Shown: positions 5,096 to 30,803 of the stretch, piece after piece
How positions within the stretch are numbered: the first letter of the stretch is position 1
Layout of the letters: each line of letters opens with the position of its first letter
DNA from: a virus
Reading direction: 5' to 3' (one strand)
Length of the DNA stretch: 39,110 nucleotides
IMG/VR virus record: IMGVR_UViG_3300044533_000249
Location: 1-39,110 of that record
Notes under the pieces: generated by a model
What the model was told of the DNA's origin: nothing
The model's database searches: none
The model's input: the letters and a program-made list of their open reading frames with translations, nothing else
Made by a program: the position numbers and the translations under genes

Positions 5096-5563
5096 ATGAC
5101 AACTACTCAGAACGCGGCTTATCCGCTTGAGACGTTTGGCCCTTACGGCGCTCTCCCAAATGGCGACGGCGGCTACCAGATTGGCACTGGCAACTTAGAT
5201 GAGGCCGATTTCGGCGTTTCACCTACGCCTGTTTCCATTACGGCTACGGCAACACTAACGGCAGCGCAGGTTCTAAATGGCCTTATTCTTGCCAATTCGG
5301 GTGTTAGTAGCGGCGCGCAGACTTATACTCTGCCAACCGTTTCTGACTTCGAGGCTGCGTTTCCATCGGCTGTTAAAGTTGGCGCAACCTACATGTTCCG
5401 TATTGTGAACCTCGGCACGTCAACGGCTACGGCTATCGTTGCCGCTGGCACTGGCTGGACGGTTTCGGGCTCATTGACGATGACCGTTCCAGTTACGACG
5501 GGCGCTTCTTTTATCGCCCGTAAGAGCGGCGCTGGCGCTTGGACGCTTTACCGCGTTGCATAA
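5096..5563 (+). CDS. Probable capsid decoration or minor head protein
   Basis: 155 residues, Thr/Ala/Gly/Val-rich and predicted all-beta. It sits between the coat gene and the head-completion genes with its own Shine-Dalgarno (TTGGAG, 5083-5088). The N-terminus (PYGALPNGDGGYQIGTGNLDE) is Gly-rich and the rest resembles beta-sandwich virion proteins (FRIVNLGTSTATAIVAAGTGW). Its position supports a decoration or structural role; no catalytic motif is visible and I do not recognise a named family. Confidence 0.65.
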   Translation: MTTTQNAAYPLETFGPYGALPNGDGGYQIGTGNLDEADFGVSPTPVSITATATLTAAQVLNGLILANSGVSSGAQTYTLPTVSDFEAAFPSAVKVGATYMFRIVNLGTSTATAIVAAGTGWTVSGSLTMTVPVTTGASFIARKSGAGAWTLYRVA

Positions 5564-5566
5564 CTA

Positions 5567-5596
5567 GGGTGGGCGCAAGCCCACTCTTTTCTCTTT
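5567..5596 (+). terminator. Intrinsic terminator with GCAA loop
   Basis: The stem GGGTGGGC / GCCCACTC (one G-T pair) closes a GCAA tetraloop at 5575-5578, followed by TTTTCTCTTT. It starts four bases after the preceding stop. Confidence 0.8.
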
Positions 5597-20942: not shown

Positions 20943-21225
20943 GCGCAATGCACAAATATCTACGGTAGTAAAAAATATTAACGAAGCGTTGGATAAACTG
21001 CGTGAAAAGACGCAATTATTATATTCTAAGATGCAAGACCAGAATCAAATAATAGCCGATTTGCGTGCCGAATTAATGACGGTAAGACCATTCAAACAAC
21101 AATCAAAACGCGACAAAGAAATATGCGTCGCCAGAGATAACGGCGAGTCTTTTGTATCGTTAGGTAATAAATATAATTTGTCCACGTCTCGGATTCAGCA
21201 AATATATAAGCGTTGTAAAAAATGA
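20935..21225 (+). CDS. Coiled-coil protein with C-terminal HTH
   Basis: 96 residues from the ATG at 20935 (MSERNAQISTVVKNINEALD) with GGAG upstream. Residues about 8-50 form a coiled coil. The C-terminus KRDKEICVARDNGESFVSLG, NKYNLSTSRIQQIYKRCKK is a sigma-region-4-like helix-turn-helix. It overlaps the DNA polymerase start by 4 bp (ATGA). Likely a DNA-binding dimer; it may regulate or help the replication proteins. Confidence 0.7.
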   Translation: MSERNAQISTVVKNINEALDKLREKTQLLYSKMQDQNQIIADLRAELMTVRPFKQQSKRDKEICVARDNGESFVSLGNKYNLSTSRIQQIYKRCKK

Positions 21226-23150
21226 TCTGGCTTGACTTTGAAACGCGCAGTCATTGCGATCTAAGAGCGCATGGCGTCTATATCTACGCGCAAGACAAGA
21301 CAACACAAGTGTTGTGTATGTCCTTTGCACACGACGATGAGAACGTATCGACGACAACAAACATGTCGGAGATGCGGCACATCTTGTCAGAGAAGCCGCA
21401 ACAGATCCGCGCGCATAACGCGGCATTTGAGCGGCTGATCATAAAGCATGTGTTAGGCTTAGACATACCATTAGAACAGTTCTACTGCACGGCGGCGCAG
21501 GCGCGCGCTAATTGCGCGCCTGGGTCACTGGAAGACGTTGGCAGATTCTACGGCGCGTCGATGAAGAAAGATCACAAAGGCGCTGCGCTTATTCGCAAGC
21601 TGTCCATACCACAGAAGGACGGCACGTTTAAAGAGAGCCCATACTTGCTAGACAAGATGATCGCCTATTGTGAGCAAGACGTGCGCGCGATGCGCGTCAT
21701 TAGTAAGATGATGCGCGAACTGACCGACGAAGAGTTAGCAGATTACTACGTTAACGAGCGCATCAATGATCGTGGCGTGTTGGTTGATACTATAACATGC
21801 GGCGCGGCGGGCATGTATAGCCGCGAGGAAACGCTGGCGATTCAAAACCGCATAGATGTCTTGACGAAAGGCGAAGTCACCGCAGCGCGCGGAACTAAAA
21901 TGCGCGATTGGGTTTTGGCTAACGTAACAAACGAAGCCTATGATGTCGTCATGCGCGACGGTAAGGCGACGATTGATAAGCGCACACGCGAAATGTTGAT
22001 GGAGCTGGGGCCGGATCTTGTCGAGCCTGACGTGTTAGAAGCTATCGAACTGGTTGACGGCGGATGGTCATCATCGGTTGCTAAGTTTAATCGGCTTTAC
22101 AATTTAGCAGGAGATGATCGCCGCGTCCGTGGCGCGTTTGTGTTTGCTGGCGGTAGCGCCACAGGCCGCGCGTCTAGCTACGGCGCACAGGTGCATAACT
22201 TTCCGCGTGAGTGTGTAAAAGATCCTGACGCAGTGGCGCAGGCAATGGCGTTCTCGCGCGATCTAGTGCCTAAGTTCGGACGACGTGTAAATGATGTTTT
22301 ACGCGGCATGTTGCGCCCGTCTCTTTGCGCGGCGAAAGGCAAAGCATTAATTGCTGCCGATTGGTCGGCTATCGAAGGCCGCGTTAATCCGTGGTTGTCC
22401 AATAAAGGCCAAGATAAGCTAAACGTGTTCATTAACGGTCAAGATGTTTACAAGACTAACGCGGCGGCAACGTATAAAGTTTCTTACGACGAGGTATCAA
22501 AAGACCAACGCCAGGTTGGCAAAGTGCAAGAGCTGGCGTGTGGGTTCGGCGGTGGCCTTGGCGCGTTTGCTGCGATGGGTAAGATTTACGGATTAAAATT
22601 AGCCGCACCTAAAGCAAGACAAATGGTGAACGCATGGCGCTGGTCTAATCAGTGGGCGGTTACTTTCTGGCAAGAATTAGAATCCGCATACATGACTGCG
22701 ATGAGAAAGAAAGGGGAAGTTTCGACGGCAGGTAAAATAAATTACTTGTTCGACGGCTTACACCTTTGGTATTCTCTGCCTTCTGGGCGTGTGCTTTGTT
22801 ACCCATTCGCGCGCTTCGAGGAAAACGGCAACTTAACGTATGCAAAAGCATCTTGGAAGCCTGCGGCAGACGCCGAAGAATGGCCCAGGGGTAAGCTATG
22901 GCATGGCCTCGCGTGTGAGAATGTTACACAGGCGACCGCCCATGACCTTTTGCGTGATGCTTTGCGCCGTTGTGAGCGTGAGAATCTTAATGTTGTTTTG
23001 CATGTGCACGATGAAATTGTTTTGGAATCATCGTCGCCGGACGAAGATAAGATAAAATTAGAATTAATTATGACCACGCCCCCGTCATGGGCCGAAGGTC
23101 TGCCGCTTGAAGCGGAAGTAAAAATCATGGGAAGTAGATACGGAAAATGA
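21222..23150 (+). CDS. Family A DNA polymerase with 3'-5' exonuclease
   Basis: 642 residues. The exonuclease domain comes first: Exo I DFET (D5, E7), Exo II-like AHNAAFE at 64-70 and Exo III YCEQD (149-153). Palm and fingers follow: motif A ADWSAIEGRV with D380, motif B R430xxxK434 ... CGFGGG and motif C VHDE at 595-598. The 5'-nuclease domain of bacterial Pol I is absent, as in other phage replicases. It is probably the replicative polymerase, working with the primase-helicase two genes on. Both ends overlap neighbours by 4 bp. Confidence 0.92.
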   Translation: MIWLDFETRSHCDLRAHGVYIYAQDKTTQVLCMSFAHDDENVSTTTNMSEMRHILSEKPQQIRAHNAAFERLIIKHVLGLDIPLEQFYCTAAQARANCAPGSLEDVGRFYGASMKKDHKGAALIRKLSIPQKDGTFKESPYLLDKMIAYCEQDVRAMRVISKMMRELTDEELADYYVNERINDRGVLVDTITCGAAGMYSREETLAIQNRIDVLTKGEVTAARGTKMRDWVLANVTNEAYDVVMRDGKATIDKRTREMLMELGPDLVEPDVLEAIELVDGGWSSSVAKFNRLYNLAGDDRRVRGAFVFAGGSATGRASSYGAQVHNFPRECVKDPDAVAQAMAFSRDLVPKFGRRVNDVLRGMLRPSLCAAKGKALIAADWSAIEGRVNPWLSNKGQDKLNVFINGQDVYKTNAAATYKVSYDEVSKDQRQVGKVQELACGFGGGLGAFAAMGKIYGLKLAAPKARQMVNAWRWSNQWAVTFWQELESAYMTAMRKKGEVSTAGKINYLFDGLHLWYSLPSGRVLCYPFARFEENGNLTYAKASWKPAADAEEWPRGKLWHGLACENVTQATAHDLLRDALRRCERENLNVVLHVHDEIVLESSSPDEDKIKLELIMTTPPSWAEGLPLEAEVKIMGSRYGK

Positions 23151-23875
23151 TTGCAGTTTGGTTTTCATGCGGAGCCGCCAGCGCAGTCGCGGCAAAACTG
23201 ACGTTAGAAAAATATTCTGACGTTCGCGTAATAAATAATCCTGTAGCGGAAGAGGACGACGACAATCGCCGGTTTCTGCGCGACGTTGAATCCTGGCTTG
23301 GCATTAAGATTGAAAGCGCTATCAACCCTAAATACCCTACCGCGTCTGCGTATGATGTATGGGCTTATCGTAATTATATGTCGGGCGTTAGCGGGGCAGT
23401 CTGCACGGTAGAACTAAAAAAGCGCGCGCGGCAGATATGGGAACAGACAAACAAAGCCGAATGGCATGTGCTTGGTTTTACCGTCGATGAAAAACATCGG
23501 TTTGATAGATTTGTTTTAACTGAGCGCGATAATGTTTTACCTGTTTTAATTGACGCAGGACTAACAAAGCAAGACTGTTTAGACCGCATTATAGCCGCTG
23601 GCATAAAGCCGCCACGCGTTTACGGTCTTGGCTTTCCAAACGCTAATTGCATTGGCTGCGTAAAAGCAACGTCACCTACCTACTGGAATCTTGTCCGACG
23701 CACGCACCCAGAGGCGTTTCAACAGCGCGCCGAACAATCGCGGGGGCTTGGGGTGAAGTTGGTAAGGTATAAAAACAAACGTATTTATCTTGATGAACTG
23801 CCAGCGGACGCAAAAGGAAGACCAATAGCTAAAATGCAAATTGACTGCGGTATATTTTGCGAGGAAAGAATATGA
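23147..23875 (+). CDS. PAPS reductase-like (adenine nucleotide alpha hydrolase) protein
   Basis: 242 residues. The N-terminal loop WFSCGAASAVAA (residues 5-16) is a variant of the SxGxxS ATP-binding loop of PAPS reductases and PP-loop enzymes. Seven cysteines are present (8, 86, 144, 168, 171, 234, 238), among them NCIGC and the final CGIFC, which could hold a metal or iron-sulfur centre as in DndC-like proteins. A sulfur or nucleotide transfer to nucleic acid is one idea; substrate unknown. It is tightly overlapped by polymerase and primase genes, so it belongs to replication-time expression. Confidence 0.75.
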   Translation: MIAVWFSCGAASAVAAKLTLEKYSDVRVINNPVAEEDDDNRRFLRDVESWLGIKIESAINPKYPTASAYDVWAYRNYMSGVSGAVCTVELKKRARQIWEQTNKAEWHVLGFTVDEKHRFDRFVLTERDNVLPVLIDAGLTKQDCLDRIIAAGIKPPRVYGLGFPNANCIGCVKATSPTYWNLVRRTHPEAFQQRAEQSRGLGVKLVRYKNKRIYLDELPADAKGRPIAKMQIDCGIFCEERI

Positions 23876-26235
23876 GCGCCGAATTTCTTAATAAGATTAT
23901 GAGTCTTGCCGAAGATGAATCGGAAACGATGCTCTTAATTAAGCAAATCGTGATCCGTGGCGAAGATGGCGAGATAGAATATTTCAACGACGGCGCGCCT
24001 AACTCTTCTTATCCTGCATGTTTACCGCAACGTGCAAAGATAAAAGATGGTGATTCTTGGTATATTAACACAGGCGTTTATATCAAAGATCGTTTTATTA
24101 AAGGCAAACCATCCGCAAGCAAACGCTGCATTGACTATGTTGCGTTTATGATGTTGGACGATATTGGTTCAACAAAAACTTACAACGGCAAACAATTTGT
24201 TGTTAAGACGCCGCCGATAAAGCCGTCGTGGATTATGGAAACGTCGGAAGGATCTTTTCAATACGGTTACATATTTAGCACACAACCAACGAAAGAAGAA
24301 TTTAACGCTGCGATCAAAGCTATTATCGCAGCGGAATATACTGACCCTGGCGCATCAAACGCGGTGCGTAACTGTCGCCTACCTGGCTCAGTTAATCTTA
24401 AAAAGGGACGCGGTAATTTTAAAGCGCGTCTTGTCGAATCTAATTTAGATCTTGAATACACGCTTGAAGAGATCTGCGTTGCGCTTGATGTAACGCCGGT
24501 TGACGTTGCAACGGGTGATCATGTTTCTATTCGCGTAAAAGACACAGGCACAGATGCAGTTTTCCAATGGTTAAACGCGAACGGCCACGCTCACGGCGAG
24601 CCTAACCATGATGGGTGGGCTCCCGTTATTTGTCCTAACGCAGAAGAACACAGCGACGGCAGCAACGTCGGCTATTATAACCCGTCAATGCGCGCGTTTA
24701 CGTGCTTTCACGGTCATTGCCGCGAGAAGATAGACAGCAAGTTCTTTTGTAATTGGGTTGCAGAACAAGGTGGCCCAAAGGCGATGCCAGGGCTGCGCGA
24801 AGATCTGATAAACGAGAACATGCAACGACTGGCAAAGGCGCTGCCGGAGAACACCGCGTTTAAAGACAGTGCAGACAAACGTATTGCGGATGTTAAACGC
24901 TTTCAAGCCGGACGTGTCAAACAGGAAAGTTGGTTCGAGCGTTTCCTCTATGTCATGGACGATGACTCTTACTTTGATAAAGAATCTTGCATTGAATACT
25001 CACGCGCCACGTTCAACGCAATCTTTCGCGGCGTTGCGTGTGTGTCCGTTAATGGGCTAAAGCCGCGCCGGATTGAGGCGTCGATATATTACGACGAGCA
25101 CCGCGAAACCAAGTGTGAATACACGTTGAAGGGTGTGACTTACGCAGCGGGAGAAAGCCTGTTGGTTCACAAAGACGGGCTTGTCTACGGCAACCGCTGG
25201 CGCGACGCGCGGCCCGACGTGAAGGGCAAAGGCGGCGATGTCACGCCTTGGCTTGAGCATTGCGAAAAGCTGATCCCTGACGAACAAGAGCGCAATCACG
25301 TCCTCGATGTGATGGCGTTTAAAGTCCAACATCCTAATATTAAAATTAATCACGCGATCTTGCACGGTGGCAAGGAGGGTCGCGGCAAAGATACGATGTG
25401 GGCTCCATTTATCTGGGCGGTGTGTGGCCCGAATGAAAAGAACTATGGCCTAATAAATAACGAAAGCCTGTCGTCTCAGTGGGGTTACGCGCTTGAGAGC
25501 GAGATCCTCGTCCTCAACGAGCTTAAAGAGCCCGACGCCGCGCAGCGTCGCGCCCTGGCTAACAAGCTGAAGCCGATCATCGCCGCCCCGCCTGACGTCA
25601 TTACGATCAACCGTAAGAATCTGCACCCTTACGACATGCTCAATCGACTTTTCGTCCTGGCGTTCTCTAATGACGAGATTCCGATTTCTCTTCCGACGCA
25701 GGATCGTCGCTGGTTTTGTATATGGTCTAGCTGCGAGCGGATGACCCCAGAGGCCGCGCAGGATATGTGGGGCTGGTATCACAGCGGCGGCTTCGAGGCT
25801 ATCGGGTCTTGGCTGCACACGCGTGATGTGTCGAAGTTCAACCCGTCCGCAACGCCTATGGAGACAGACTACAAGCGCACCATGATCGTCGGCGGTCTGT
25901 CCACGGCAGAGGCTTTCATCCTGCATCAGATCGAGATGCGCGCCGCGCCGTTCGAGTCGGGCGTTATCGCTGGCCCTTGGTATCGGCACTGTGAGATGCT
26001 TATGGGGCCAGGTATCGCACCATCCGGCCTCAAGATCCCACAGCCCGCGCTACTGCACGCGCTCGCGGAGGCTGGCTGGGTTGATATGGGGATGTGCGCG
26101 GCAGAGGAGCTGCCTACCAAGCGTCACATCTATGTGCGGCCTGACCGCCAACATGAGTCGAAATCAGATCTGAGACGGGCAATCGAACCAGTAAAGGTCG
26201 AAGGAAATGTATCGCCTTTTCGTAATACTAAGTAG
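23872..26235 (+). CDS. Primase-helicase (AEP/RepB-type primase + SF3-like helicase)
   Basis: 787 residues from the ATG at 23872, which has GAGGAAAG upstream and overlaps the previous stop. The N-terminal primase-like part has FMMLDDIGSTK (D96, D97) and DPGASNAVRNCRLPGSVNLK. A zinc-binding stretch follows (C254, H260, C278, H280/C283). The C-terminal ATPase has a modified P-loop HGGKEGRGKDT (498-508, K506), typical of DUF5906-type superfamily 3 helicases. It would open and prime the replication fork for the family A polymerase. Confidence 0.85.
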   Translation: MSAEFLNKIMSLAEDESETMLLIKQIVIRGEDGEIEYFNDGAPNSSYPACLPQRAKIKDGDSWYINTGVYIKDRFIKGKPSASKRCIDYVAFMMLDDIGSTKTYNGKQFVVKTPPIKPSWIMETSEGSFQYGYIFSTQPTKEEFNAAIKAIIAAEYTDPGASNAVRNCRLPGSVNLKKGRGNFKARLVESNLDLEYTLEEICVALDVTPVDVATGDHVSIRVKDTGTDAVFQWLNANGHAHGEPNHDGWAPVICPNAEEHSDGSNVGYYNPSMRAFTCFHGHCREKIDSKFFCNWVAEQGGPKAMPGLREDLINENMQRLAKALPENTAFKDSADKRIADVKRFQAGRVKQESWFERFLYVMDDDSYFDKESCIEYSRATFNAIFRGVACVSVNGLKPRRIEASIYYDEHRETKCEYTLKGVTYAAGESLLVHKDGLVYGNRWRDARPDVKGKGGDVTPWLEHCEKLIPDEQERNHVLDVMAFKVQHPNIKINHAILHGGKEGRGKDTMWAPFIWAVCGPNEKNYGLINNESLSSQWGYALESEILVLNELKEPDAAQRRALANKLKPIIAAPPDVITINRKNLHPYDMLNRLFVLAFSNDEIPISLPTQDRRWFCIWSSCERMTPEAAQDMWGWYHSGGFEAIGSWLHTRDVSKFNPSATPMETDYKRTMIVGGLSTAEAFILHQIEMRAAPFESGVIAGPWYRHCEMLMGPGIAPSGLKIPQPALLHALAEAGWVDMGMCAAEELPTKRHIYVRPDRQHESKSDLRRAIEPVKVEGNVSPFRNTK

Positions 26236-26689: not shown

Positions 26690-26986
26690 TCAACGAGCAC
26701 GATCATACTTAGCCCCTCTCAGTTTAGCTTCCCAACATTTGACGCCATAGATCACCGTAGAATGGTCGCGCTTGAATATACGCGCAAGTTTTAAATAGCT
26801 AGAGTGGGTTTCATATCTAGCGCGATACATGGCCTTGTGACGAGCTTGCACGATCTTTGATACTCGTTTGTAGCCCACAATGTCTGACGGGAATATCAAG
26901 AACTCATCAGCCACTTCGGCTATTATTTCACGCACGAACACGTCGCCTTCCCTTTCATTGCTTGTGTCCCACCACGGCGCTCTCAC
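26690..26986 (-). CDS. DnaA domain IV-only DNA-binding protein
   Basis: 98 residues. VSKIVQARHKAMYRARYETH ... SYLKLARIFKRDHSTVIYGV matches the C-terminal DNA-binding domain of DnaA, including the RDH(S/T)TV signature (residues 73-78). R49 aligns with E. coli R407, and H75, S76, T77 with the base-contacting H434, T435, T436. The AAA+ domain is absent, so it cannot act as a full initiator. It is in the leftward operon whose two promoters each carry a perfect DnaA box, so autoregulation or competition with host DnaA is plausible. Confidence 0.88.
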   Translation of the reverse strand: MRAPWWDTSNEREGDVFVREIIAEVADEFLIFPSDIVGYKRVSKIVQARHKAMYRARYETHSSYLKLARIFKRDHSTVIYGVKCWEAKLRGAKYDRAR

Positions 26987-29048: not shown

Positions 29049-29077
29049 GTTATACACATGTTTAAAAGTTATGTCAA
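29049..29077 (-). promoter_or_regulatory. Leftward sigma70 promoter P2 with DnaA box
   Basis: On the minus strand, TTGACA (29072-29077) and TATAAC (29049-29054) are separated by exactly 17 bases. A perfect DnaA box TTATACACA lies on the plus strand at 29050-29058, over the -10 and into the spacer. Its ACATGTGTATAACT core is identical to that of P1. Confidence 0.85.
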
Positions 29078-29295: not shown

Positions 29296-29324
29296 GTTAT
29301 ACACATGTGCACAACTAGTGTCAA
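29296..29324 (-). promoter_or_regulatory. Leftward sigma70 promoter P1 with DnaA box
   Basis: On the minus strand, TTGACA (29319-29324) and TATAAC (29296-29301) have 17-base spacing. A perfect DnaA box TTATACACA lies at 29297-29305 on the plus strand, across the -10. The palindrome CACATGTG sits just upstream of the -10. Confidence 0.88.
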
Positions 29325-29365: not shown

Positions 29366-29428
29366 GCGGTGTTAAGTAGTAAAAATGCGGTGTTGGGTAG
29401 TGAAAATGCGGTGTTGGGTAGTGGTTTG
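29366..29428 (+). repeat. Three tandem 21-bp repeats
   Basis: Units at 29366-29386, 29387-29407 and 29408-29428 share GCGGTGTT(GG/AA)GTAGT; a partial fourth starts at 29429. The top strand is G/T-rich and the repeat lies in non-coding DNA. Confidence 0.85.
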
Positions 29429-29479
29429 GCGGTGGTTGGGTTGGGGCAACTGTCTGTTAATGAACCCGTTTGTCGAGTT

Positions 29480-29530
29480 GGGTATATATATGATTAAAAA
29501 TCAATTTAAAAATATTGTTATACTATTGTG
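29480..29530. other. AT-rich tract in the control region
   Basis: Runs such as TATATATATGATTAAAAATC and ATTTAAAAATATTGTTATAC make this the most AT-rich stretch of the intergenic region. It is flanked by the 21-bp repeats and their inverted copies, as expected for a DNA unwinding element. Confidence 0.5.
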
Positions 29531-29565
29531 CAGTGCAGCGCAAAACTTACCAGCAACTTTTTGGG

Positions 29566-29585
29566 CACTACCCAAACTACCCAAC
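29566..29585 (-). repeat. Two inverted copies of the 21-bp repeat core
   Basis: CACTACCCAA (29566-29575) and ACTACCCAAC (29576-29585) are the reverse complement of the TTGGGTAGT core of the direct repeats about 150 bp upstream, so the same site lies on both sides of the AT-rich tract. Confidence 0.7.
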
Positions 29586-29727: not shown

Positions 29728-29766
29728 CAATAAAGACGCAGTAACATAAAGCGTGCGCGCCGTCAA

Positions 29767-30240
29767 GTTTACGTAAACTAAGTTTACAATCACGACGCGC
29801 CCGCGCTGGCAGTCGCTCGCCTGGTAGCTACATGACGAGCGCGCGCAGTGCGCGCCGCCAAGCGATCTTTAGTTTACATTCAGTAAGCGCGCACCGCTTT
29901 GTTTACATAAACACGTTTACAGCAAACAAGCGCGCGCTCGCGTCAATAGAACAAAGCGCGCACATTAACTGTCACACATTTGTTTACATAAACACGTTTA
30001 CCGCAAACGATAGTTTACATTCAGTTATTATATACCGCGCGTTTACATAAACATGATTATTATAAACTCCCCGTTTACATAAACACGTTTACATAAACAA
30101 AGCTGCATGATTGTAAACTGTGCCATAATGATACAGTTTACATTCAACCCCGCCGTTTACATAAACATGTTTACGTAAACATTAAGTTTACATTTGTTTA
30201 CATTCAGCTCCGTGTTTACATAAACTTAGTTTACATTCAG
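29767..30240. repeat. Array of 18 GTTTAC sites (iteron/operator-like)
   Basis: Eighteen plus-strand GTTTAC hexamers occur in 474 bp. Nine are near-palindromes GTTTAC(A/G)TAAAC, at 29767, 29901, 29982, 30041, 30073, 30087, 30155, 30169 and 30214. Five are GTTTACATTCA(G/A), at 29872, 30013, 30136, 30196 and 30229. Two are GTTTAC(A/C)(G)CAAAC, at 29915 and 29996. Two are variants (29782, 30186), and one lone GTAAAC lies at 30113. Four pairs have an exact 14-bp start-to-start distance (29901/29915, 29982/29996, 30073/30087, 30155/30169), and the pairs recur every 81-91 bp. The 16-bp sequence at 30167-30182 is a perfect palindrome. Confidence 0.9.
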
Positions 30241-30321
30241 CTCGGCCAGGGGGCTCTGGGCCAGAGGGAAGGCGGGAATATCTATACAGGGACTGCACGA
30301 AATTTTTATTATTTTATCAGC

Positions 30322-30356: not shown

Positions 30357-30803
30357 ATGATTACTCAAGCAGAACTCAAACAATCTTTGCGAATTGATCC
30401 AGACACAGGCGACATCCTTACTTTAAAAGGACGCCCCGCAGGTTCTATGACTTGGAATGGATACCGGCGTGTAACGATAAGAGGCCGCGAATATAAAGCG
30501 CATAGACTAATATGGTTATGGGTGCACGGCGAGCATCCGCCAAAGGATATGACAATAGATCATGTAAATGGGATCAAAACAGATAACAGAATTTGTAACT
30601 TGAGACTGGCAACACAAATGCAAAATACGGGGTTTTACTTTAGACCTACTGAAATGCGAAACATATATAAGGTTAAAGATCGCTACTGCGTAGAGATGCT
30701 GTATTATGGAAAACGTATTCGACGCGAAGCTAAGACCTTGGAAAGAGCTAAAGAAATACGCGCAGAGATATATGCTATTTACCCGCCATTGTGTAATCGT
30801 TAA
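30357..30803 (+). CDS. HNH endonuclease with AP2-like C-terminus
   Basis: 148 residues. The HNH core is HRLIWLWVHGEHPPKDMTID and HVNGIKTDNRICNLRLAT, with D68, H69, N71, N77 and N81. The C-terminal NIYKVKDRYCVEMLYYGKRI, RREAKTLERAKEIRAEIY resembles the AP2 DNA-binding fold of homing HNH enzymes. There is no ribosome site. It is the first gene of the rightward packaging block; it may be a free-standing homing enzyme, or, as near other terminases, assist DNA packaging. Confidence 0.85.
   Translation: MITQAELKQSLRIDPDTGDILTLKGRPAGSMTWNGYRRVTIRGREYKAHRLIWLWVHGEHPPKDMTIDHVNGIKTDNRICNLRLATQMQNTGFYFRPTEMRNIYKVKDRYCVEMLYYGKRIRREAKTLERAKEIRAEIYAIYPPLCNR

Follow-up and report, generated by a model that had tools for sequence, protein, structure and literature searches.

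The stretch of DNA analysed here in full, hereafter called the window, is a virus record of 39,110 bp from a podovirus-like phage. It encodes P22-like portal and coat proteins as well as terminase genes, its best annotated-phage match over the region of the finding is the uncultured Manatee Spring phage MW202483.1, and we take it to be a freshwater phage, autonomous and tailed. The two contig ends (1-2660 and 38500-39110) resemble each other and are made of repetitive tail-protein sequence; thus, repeats in a circularly permuted genome are probably where the record was broken.

Genes and repeats at the intergenic segment

A leftward early operon occupies 26.3-29.3 kb of the window, and a rightward block of HNH, small terminase and large terminase genes starts at 30357. 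The segment studied here, 29366-29585, is intergenic and lies between the two; 3.1 kb of DNA, including the leftward operon, separates it from the upstream primase-helicase gene. The relevant features are as follows.

21222-23150: family-A DNA polymerase
23872..26235, plus strand: primase/SF3-helicase of 787 aa, the inferred initiator (Pfam, profile search and structure comparison)
26086..26154, plus strand: codons of the wing hairpin, aa 739-761, the inferred determinant of iteron specificity (residues 742, 743, 745, 748, 753 and 761)
26690-26986, minus strand: stand-alone DnaA domain IV protein of the leftward operon (PF08299, E 1e-17)
29049..29077, minus strand: leftward promoter TTGACA-N17-TATAAC, its -10 overlapping the DnaA-box-like TTATACACA; adjoins the proposed origin, outside it
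29296..29324, minus strand: second leftward promoter TTGACA-N17-TATAAC with TTATACACA; adjoins the proposed origin
29366..29428, plus strand: left arm, three 21-bp units with one 9-bp iteron each, spaced by exactly 21 bp
29372..29380, plus strand: degenerate iteron TTAAGTAGT, in register with both exact copies
29393..29401, plus strand: left-arm iteron TTGGGTAGT (exact-match count)
29414..29422, plus strand: left-arm iteron TTGGGTAGT (exact-match count)
29478..29485, plus strand: partial iteron TTGGGTAT bordering the AT tract (read from the sequence)
29483..29523, no strand: AT-rich tract, putative DNA-unwinding element (nearest-neighbour energies computed along the full 39,110 bp)
29567..29575, minus strand: right-arm iteron TTGGGTAGT, inverted (exact-match count)
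29576..29584, minus strand: right-arm iteron TTGGGTAGT, inverted, head-to-tail with the 29567 copy at 9 bp (exact-match count)

The sequence TTGGGTAGT occurs in four exact copies in the 39,110 bp, compared to 0.14 expected, and none of 100 shuffles reached four. All four copies lie inside 192 bp and none is found elsewhere in the record; two of them face the AT tract from the left (plus strand) and two from the right (minus strand). The 21-bp units at 29366, 29387 and 29408 (GCGGTGTTAAGTAGTAAAAAT, GCGGTGTTGGGTAGTGAAAAT and GCGGTGTTGGGTAGTGGTTTG) are exact in register and non-identical in sequence, the first two being 86% alike, and the left arm is lengthened by the degenerate copy at 29372 and the partial copy at 29478. 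Nearest-neighbour energies rank 29483-29523 as the weakest 40-bp duplex in the whole record; a -10-like TATACT lies inside this tract. In a scan for 8-mers placed as direct copies, AT tract and inverted copies, the window layout scored 4, the highest score among 40 local shuffles being 2. An Rfam search found no RNA family here, and a promoter and terminator scan returned nothing that exceeded the shuffles.

The first-pass annotation had described three exact-length 21-bp repeats, an AT-rich stretch and two inverted cores, all of which were confirmed where it had placed them. The 21-bp register holds, and the true unit was corrected to a 9-mer, since the relatives described below carry head-to-tail copies at 8-9 bp and the right arm of the window itself has 9-bp spacing. 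The repeat unit is thus a 9-bp iteron, and the 21-bp period is a spacing peculiar to the left arm of the window phage.

Several neighbouring elements deserve separate description. Given that TTATACACA lies over the -10 boxes of both leftward promoters (29050 and 29297), it is possible that the DnaA domain IV protein regulates them. Between the iteron segment and the terminase genes, at 29764-30240, there are about 20 GTTTAC-type sites (GTTTACATAAAC and GTTTACATTC); this array is common to close relatives, another clade carries GTAAGTGAGTGCTCAC repeats instead, and a packaging or regulator site is one possible role for it. Just upstream of the small terminase gene, at 30240-30315, a GC-rich block (GGGGG..GGGCC...AGGGACTGCAC) is followed by an AT run. 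The block is kept in the relatives examined (L003 at 5490-5560, L005 at 5520-5580, and L102), and could conceivably be a cos/pac or promoter element. Between it and the small terminase gene, the window and locus L001 carry an HNH homing endonuclease gene (30357-30803 in the window), which is missing from L002, a relative with 98%-identical terminase.

A fixed address with changing letters in relatives

To define the layout in relatives, 160 related loci were drawn from IMG/VR by way of two baits, the large terminase and primase-helicase. Those with 2 kb or more of sequence upstream of TerL, 110 in all, were scanned along their whole length, blind to position, for a 9-mer (one mismatch allowed) that is direct before and inverted after an AT-rich gap 45-170 bp long. 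A score of at least 6 was reached in 55 of the 110 loci, every one of them 742-1727 bp upstream of TerL (median 932); in these whole-locus scans of 110 loci no score of 6 or more was seen away from that address, and none of 330 locally shuffled loci reached even a score of 4. The gap, conserved at 82-150 bp, has a median of 96 bp and is 66% AT. The iteron unit in the relatives is 8-9 bp and frequently head-to-tail, and in 52 of 59 layouts, a set that includes a few GTTTAC arrays, the left arm has its G-rich strand reading towards the AT tract. About half of the loci scored below 6, corresponding to weak arrays, other layouts or detection limits. It is to be noted that the best match of the 9-mer scan in the window itself is the GTTTAC array and not TTGGGTAGT, which ranks first only in the exact 8-mer version of the scan; the TTGGGTAGT motif was set by hand for the window and its nearest relatives, and its layout was identified by the first-pass annotation and through the relatives.

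The iteron letters differ between lineages, and both arms are altered together. Locus L001, for example, has four to five copies of TTGGTAGT, an AT tract and two copies of ACTACCAAC, and L075 has TTTGGGTCA in 4 and 8 copies; the iteron is TTTGGTCAT in L005, TTAGGGTA in L003, TGTGGACAA in L081 and TTAGGCTAT in L043, and TTTAGGCTA is another motif among the relatives. A comparison with relatives had been proposed by the first-pass annotation, with lack of conservation named as grounds for refuting its reading. The comparison showed an architecture conserved at the same address, with letters drifting in both arms, and because this architecture recurs there in dozens of relatives, the reading was not refuted on those grounds. 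As a separate observation, the phage-like relative L169 (8620-8940; a contig in an actinobacterial MAG) carries TGTTAGCAATGTAAGCAA iterons around an AT tract, along with many more TGTTAGCAATGTAAGCAA copies of alternating orientation.

The layout was also found in more distant phages. In the Nitratiruptor phage NrS-1 (AB746912.1; L166, 5060-5215), it lies directly 3' of the primase-polymerase gene with a scan score of 16, and consists of four GGTTACACTTT-like iterons, an AT tract and inverted copies; the motif published as the NrS-1 priming site, TTTGGTTA (PMC8718748), straddles the boundary between two of these iterons. An NrS-1 relative from IMG/VR (L180) shows the same layout with GGTAACACTTT directly after its primase gene, as does the Halomonas phage vB_HmeY_H4907 with CTGTCTGA, an AT tract and TCAGACAG. 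No such layout was found near the primases of the Vibrio phages 1.185.O, 1.021.A and VP5. The NrS-1 structure paper (PMC7102993) points to a pair of 8-nt sites as a possible origin and makes no mention of repeats; the iterons are undescribed in the NrS-1 literature that we searched.

The primase-helicase and covariation of its wing with the iterons

By Pfam, the 787-aa protein has an SF3 helicase domain (DUF5906, aa 497-613), a weak RepB/AEP-primase match (aa 91-201) and no Toprim match. The RepB_primase match, at E 5e-5, is just under the curated cut-off, and de novo priming by the N-terminus is only inferred. A profile search retrieved the NrS-1 primase-polymerase at E 3e-9. With a larger C-terminal model, the C-terminal region of the NrS-1 primase-polymerase ranked first (E 6e-7), and SaPI PriRep1 with dsDNA (7pds) was also matched, at E about 1e-3. 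AlphaFold2, run with an alignment of 59 relatives, predicted for the last 128 residues the order helix, helix, short strand, helix, helix and two-strand hairpin, i.e., a winged-helix topology whose core has a pLDDT of about 90. The two strands of the hairpin span aa 737-742 and 751-755 (residues 78-83 and 92-96 of the model). Structure comparison of the predicted fold returned many winged-helix DNA-binding proteins at Z 4-6, a moderate score that supports the general fold only, the matches being to unrelated winged helices. The P4 origin-binding domain was absent from this list of matches, which is no evidence against kinship.

When helicase distance was correlated with motif distance in sliding windows (a Mantel-type test), clade structure dominated and no sharp peak emerged. 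Since clade structure swamps the distance correlation, near-identical helicases with different iterons were compared instead. The sharpest case is L118, the helicase of which is 93-96% identical to those of L101, L102, L107, L114, L119 and L133; its iterons are TGTGGACA, as opposed to TTGGGTCA in these neighbours. Aligned origin DNA showed that the L118 iterons have been rewritten in both arms at homologous positions, with the flanks still recognisable. The L118 helicase differs from its neighbours at 15 private columns, of which 12 are C-terminal. When 763 gap-free columns were considered, six were found to join L118 to an independent TGTGGACAA clade (L071, L079, L145, L153, L156 and L163) against both TTTGGGTCA clades, namely aa 742, 743, 745, 748, 753 and 761. 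The chance that all six fall in the 45-residue C-terminal part is 3e-8, assuming independence of columns; five of them lie within the predicted hairpin or loop, and aa 761 is just past it.

The same tendency was seen in wider comparisons. Among pairs with N-part identity of 0.93 or more, C-terminal identity was 0.98 for the same motif versus 0.71 for different motifs, although the low value in this bin rests on L118 alone; at N-part identity of 0.85-0.93, the corresponding values were 0.86 and 0.69. Helicases of L138 and L141 (GTTTATGC), when compared to those of L130 and L108 (ATATCGTCA), are 0.83-0.87 identical in the N-part and 0.47-0.51 in the C-part. Within the window's own clade, the change from TTGGGTAGT to TTGGTAGT (L001) is accompanied by changes at residues 743, 745 and 748, and the combination of K743 and R745 marks held-out lineages with TGTG-containing iterons (L059, L067, L068 and L070), the arrays of which are weak and score only 4. 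A simple rule in which P or Q at aa 748 signifies GGGT failed on the held-out L007 and L031, L007 having K748.

Among the L118 ORFs matched in both clades, none other than the helicase is closer to the TGTGGACAA clade, with one exception, an ORF antisense to the portal gene that scores marginally higher with that clade; one 128-aa ORF has no clade-1 match. As no other matched gene of L118 has switched, the helicase rather than a neighbouring gene is inferred to be the reader of the iterons. The wing codons of L118 are 0.71-0.73 identical to the TGTGGACAA clade and 0.60-0.64 to its own, with many synonymous differences, which rule out a recent short gene-conversion tract at the DNA level and point to an old exchange or to parallel change. 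It should be borne in mind that L118 is a single metagenomic contig. Overall, covariation with the wing residues supports C-terminal reading of the iterons by the primase-helicase, in the absence of any binding data, and since the spelling of the repeat changes together with the wing, origin and initiator appear to co-evolve.

The origin reading, its rivals and its significance

We consider it very likely (probability about 0.85) that 29366-29585 is a replication origin read by the phage's own primase-helicase, there being no replication, binding or melting data. In the mechanism that we propose, copies of the primase/SF3-helicase would use their C-terminal winged helix to bind the 9-bp iterons in the left and right arms, with the wing reading the iteron bases. 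The helicases would assemble on either side of the AT tract, probably as two rings, melt the tract, load onto the exposed strands and travel outwards, and the same protein would prime synthesis for the phage family-A DNA polymerase. The layout, its excess over chance, its position, its conservation and the covariation have been shown by computation, and the fold is a prediction. Binding, melting at 29483-29523, double-ring loading, outward forks and priming by the same protein are inferred from the layout and covariation and by analogy with the biochemistry of SaPI, P4 and NrS-1. The core claim of the first-pass annotation, that initiator sites flanking a melting region make up an origin, is strongly supported by the comparison, its melting and initiation remaining inferences.

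By analogy, the window system would be a variant of the kind in which a self-loading primase-helicase acts on iterons, working like the origins of SaPI/PICI and P4. PICI origins have an AT-rich region with a set of iterons on each side (PMC6092414, figure 2 legend), a layout also seen in the window. The SaPI/PICI initiator, to which we liken the window protein, is a helicase that loads itself and often carries a fused primase, and SaPI Rep recognises the origin iterons through its C-terminal domain (PMC7581432). However, a SaPI/PICI origin follows its initiator gene immediately on the 3' side. NrS-1 and the Halomonas phage share this placement, whereas in the window the proposed origin is near terS and 3.1 kb from the initiator gene. 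Moreover, the window phage has its own DNA polymerase and structural genes, whereas a PICI is a satellite that needs the structural genes of its helper. Being an autonomous phage with its own terminase, portal and coat, and with an origin distant from the initiator gene, the window is not a PICI. P4 alpha is similarly a multifunctional primase-helicase that binds origin repeats with a winged helix (PMC4234260), which is C-terminal; in the window protein the winged helix is only predicted. The P4 alpha primase is of the Toprim type (PMC4234260), in contrast to the window N-terminus, which resembles RepB/AEP primases, and as it lacks a Toprim match the window protein is not a P4 alpha member. 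P4 also uses two separated cis elements (ori/crr). In the RSF1010 oriV (RepA/RepB'/RepC) and in pRN1 with its ORF904, iteron recognition, helicase and RepB-type/AEP primase likewise cooperate at the origin, and ORF904 has a C-terminal winged helix (PMC4234260); unlike the window phage, RSF1010 splits the functions over three separate proteins and pRN1 has a stem-loop and no iterons. The closest solved relative of the window protein in both sequence and fold is the NrS-1 primase-polymerase (6k9c/6k9e/6lrb), with which it has in common the order of primase and SF3 helicase, the SF3 domain (DUF5906) being homologous to the NrS-1 CTR. Unlike NrS-1, the window phage has a family-A DNA polymerase as well, and polymerisation by its N-terminal domain is at most inferred.

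Other explanations of the segment must be weighed against this reading. The arms could be operators, bound by the helicase or an unidentified repressor that controls the divergent operons without any origin function. In favour of this, the segment lies between divergent operons, with the leftward promoters at distances of about 70 and 320 bp on its left side, the AT tract contains the -10-like TATACT, and many initiators are known to autoregulate as well. Nonetheless, we find it unlikely, as the letters covary with a helicase that carries a primase domain and not with a dedicated regulator, no duplex in the record is weaker than the AT tract, the array is arranged symmetrically around that tract with a conserved gap, and the layouts of NrS-1 and the Halomonas phage directly follow the primase gene. 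Alternatively, this could be a pac/cos region with repeats recognised by the small terminase, whose gene lies just downstream. Arrays of repeats close to terS commonly serve as pac sites, and the layout in relatives is 0.7-1.8 kb upstream of the terminase genes. This is made very improbable by L118, which has switched iterons and yet kept TerS/TerL with clade 1 (90.6%/98.8%; only 68%/87% to the TGTGGACAA clade), and the GTTTAC array and the conserved GC-rich block, both nearer to TerS, are better candidates. The first-pass annotation had linked the segment to the GTTTAC array, which was not supported, since the array is a separate element, missing or replaced in other relatives with the same layout.

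Its link to the DnaA-box promoters was not supported either, and bears on a third possibility, an oriC-like origin in which TTATACACA is the binding site of a host DnaA or of the phage DnaA domain IV protein, with the host DnaA melting the tract. The occurrence of TTATACACA at 29050 and 29297, the phage protein with DnaA domain IV (PF08299, E 1e-17), and the fact that TGTGGACAA of some relatives reads TTGTCCACA, one base off the DnaA box TTATCCACA, speak for it. However, TTATACACA sits in the -10s of the two leftward promoters, outside the flanked tract, and there is no DnaA-box cluster at the unwinding element; most iteron types are unlike DnaA boxes, and it is the helicase wing that tracks their spelling. 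The domain IV protein was found in just 26 of 90 spanning loci and in none of the TGTGGACAA phages that were identified. We therefore regard this alternative as very unlikely, and the domain IV protein, missing from most of the loci that bear the layout, was dropped as a candidate reader. The iterons could also serve the primase as start sites in single-stranded form, either in place of or in addition to a role as double-stranded sites; this less likely reading can coexist with the origin reading. The NrS-1 polymerase primes at TTTGGTTA (PMC8718748), which is close to several iterons here and in NrS-1 spans a two-iteron junction in the same kind of layout, and the orientation of the iterons would direct synthesis outward on both sides. 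Against it, the specificity maps to the C-terminal wing and not to the N-terminal primase, and the priming site of NrS-1 has been credited to the helix-bundle domain (PMC8718748).

The origin reading, with the primase-helicase as reader, invites a bolder version, to which we incline by a modest margin: that in widespread, free-living tailed phages the iteron spelling and the primase-helicase wing diversify in step, that they form a repeatedly rewired protein-DNA code in which the origin of each lineage is private, and that the 'PICI-only' organisation of the origin is general to replicons of the NrS-1 type of primase-helicase, NrS-1 included. For a large set of uncultured freshwater phages, the analysis assigns, from sequence alone, both the origin and the protein that reads it, and names a few wing residues that should set iteron specificity. 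It extends to autonomous phages, including NrS-1, an origin organisation that was described as unique to phage satellites (PMC6092414), and the origin of NrS-1, an open question in the literature searched, now has a candidate layout. If true, such private origin codes would bear on the mixing of replication modules between phages and satellites.
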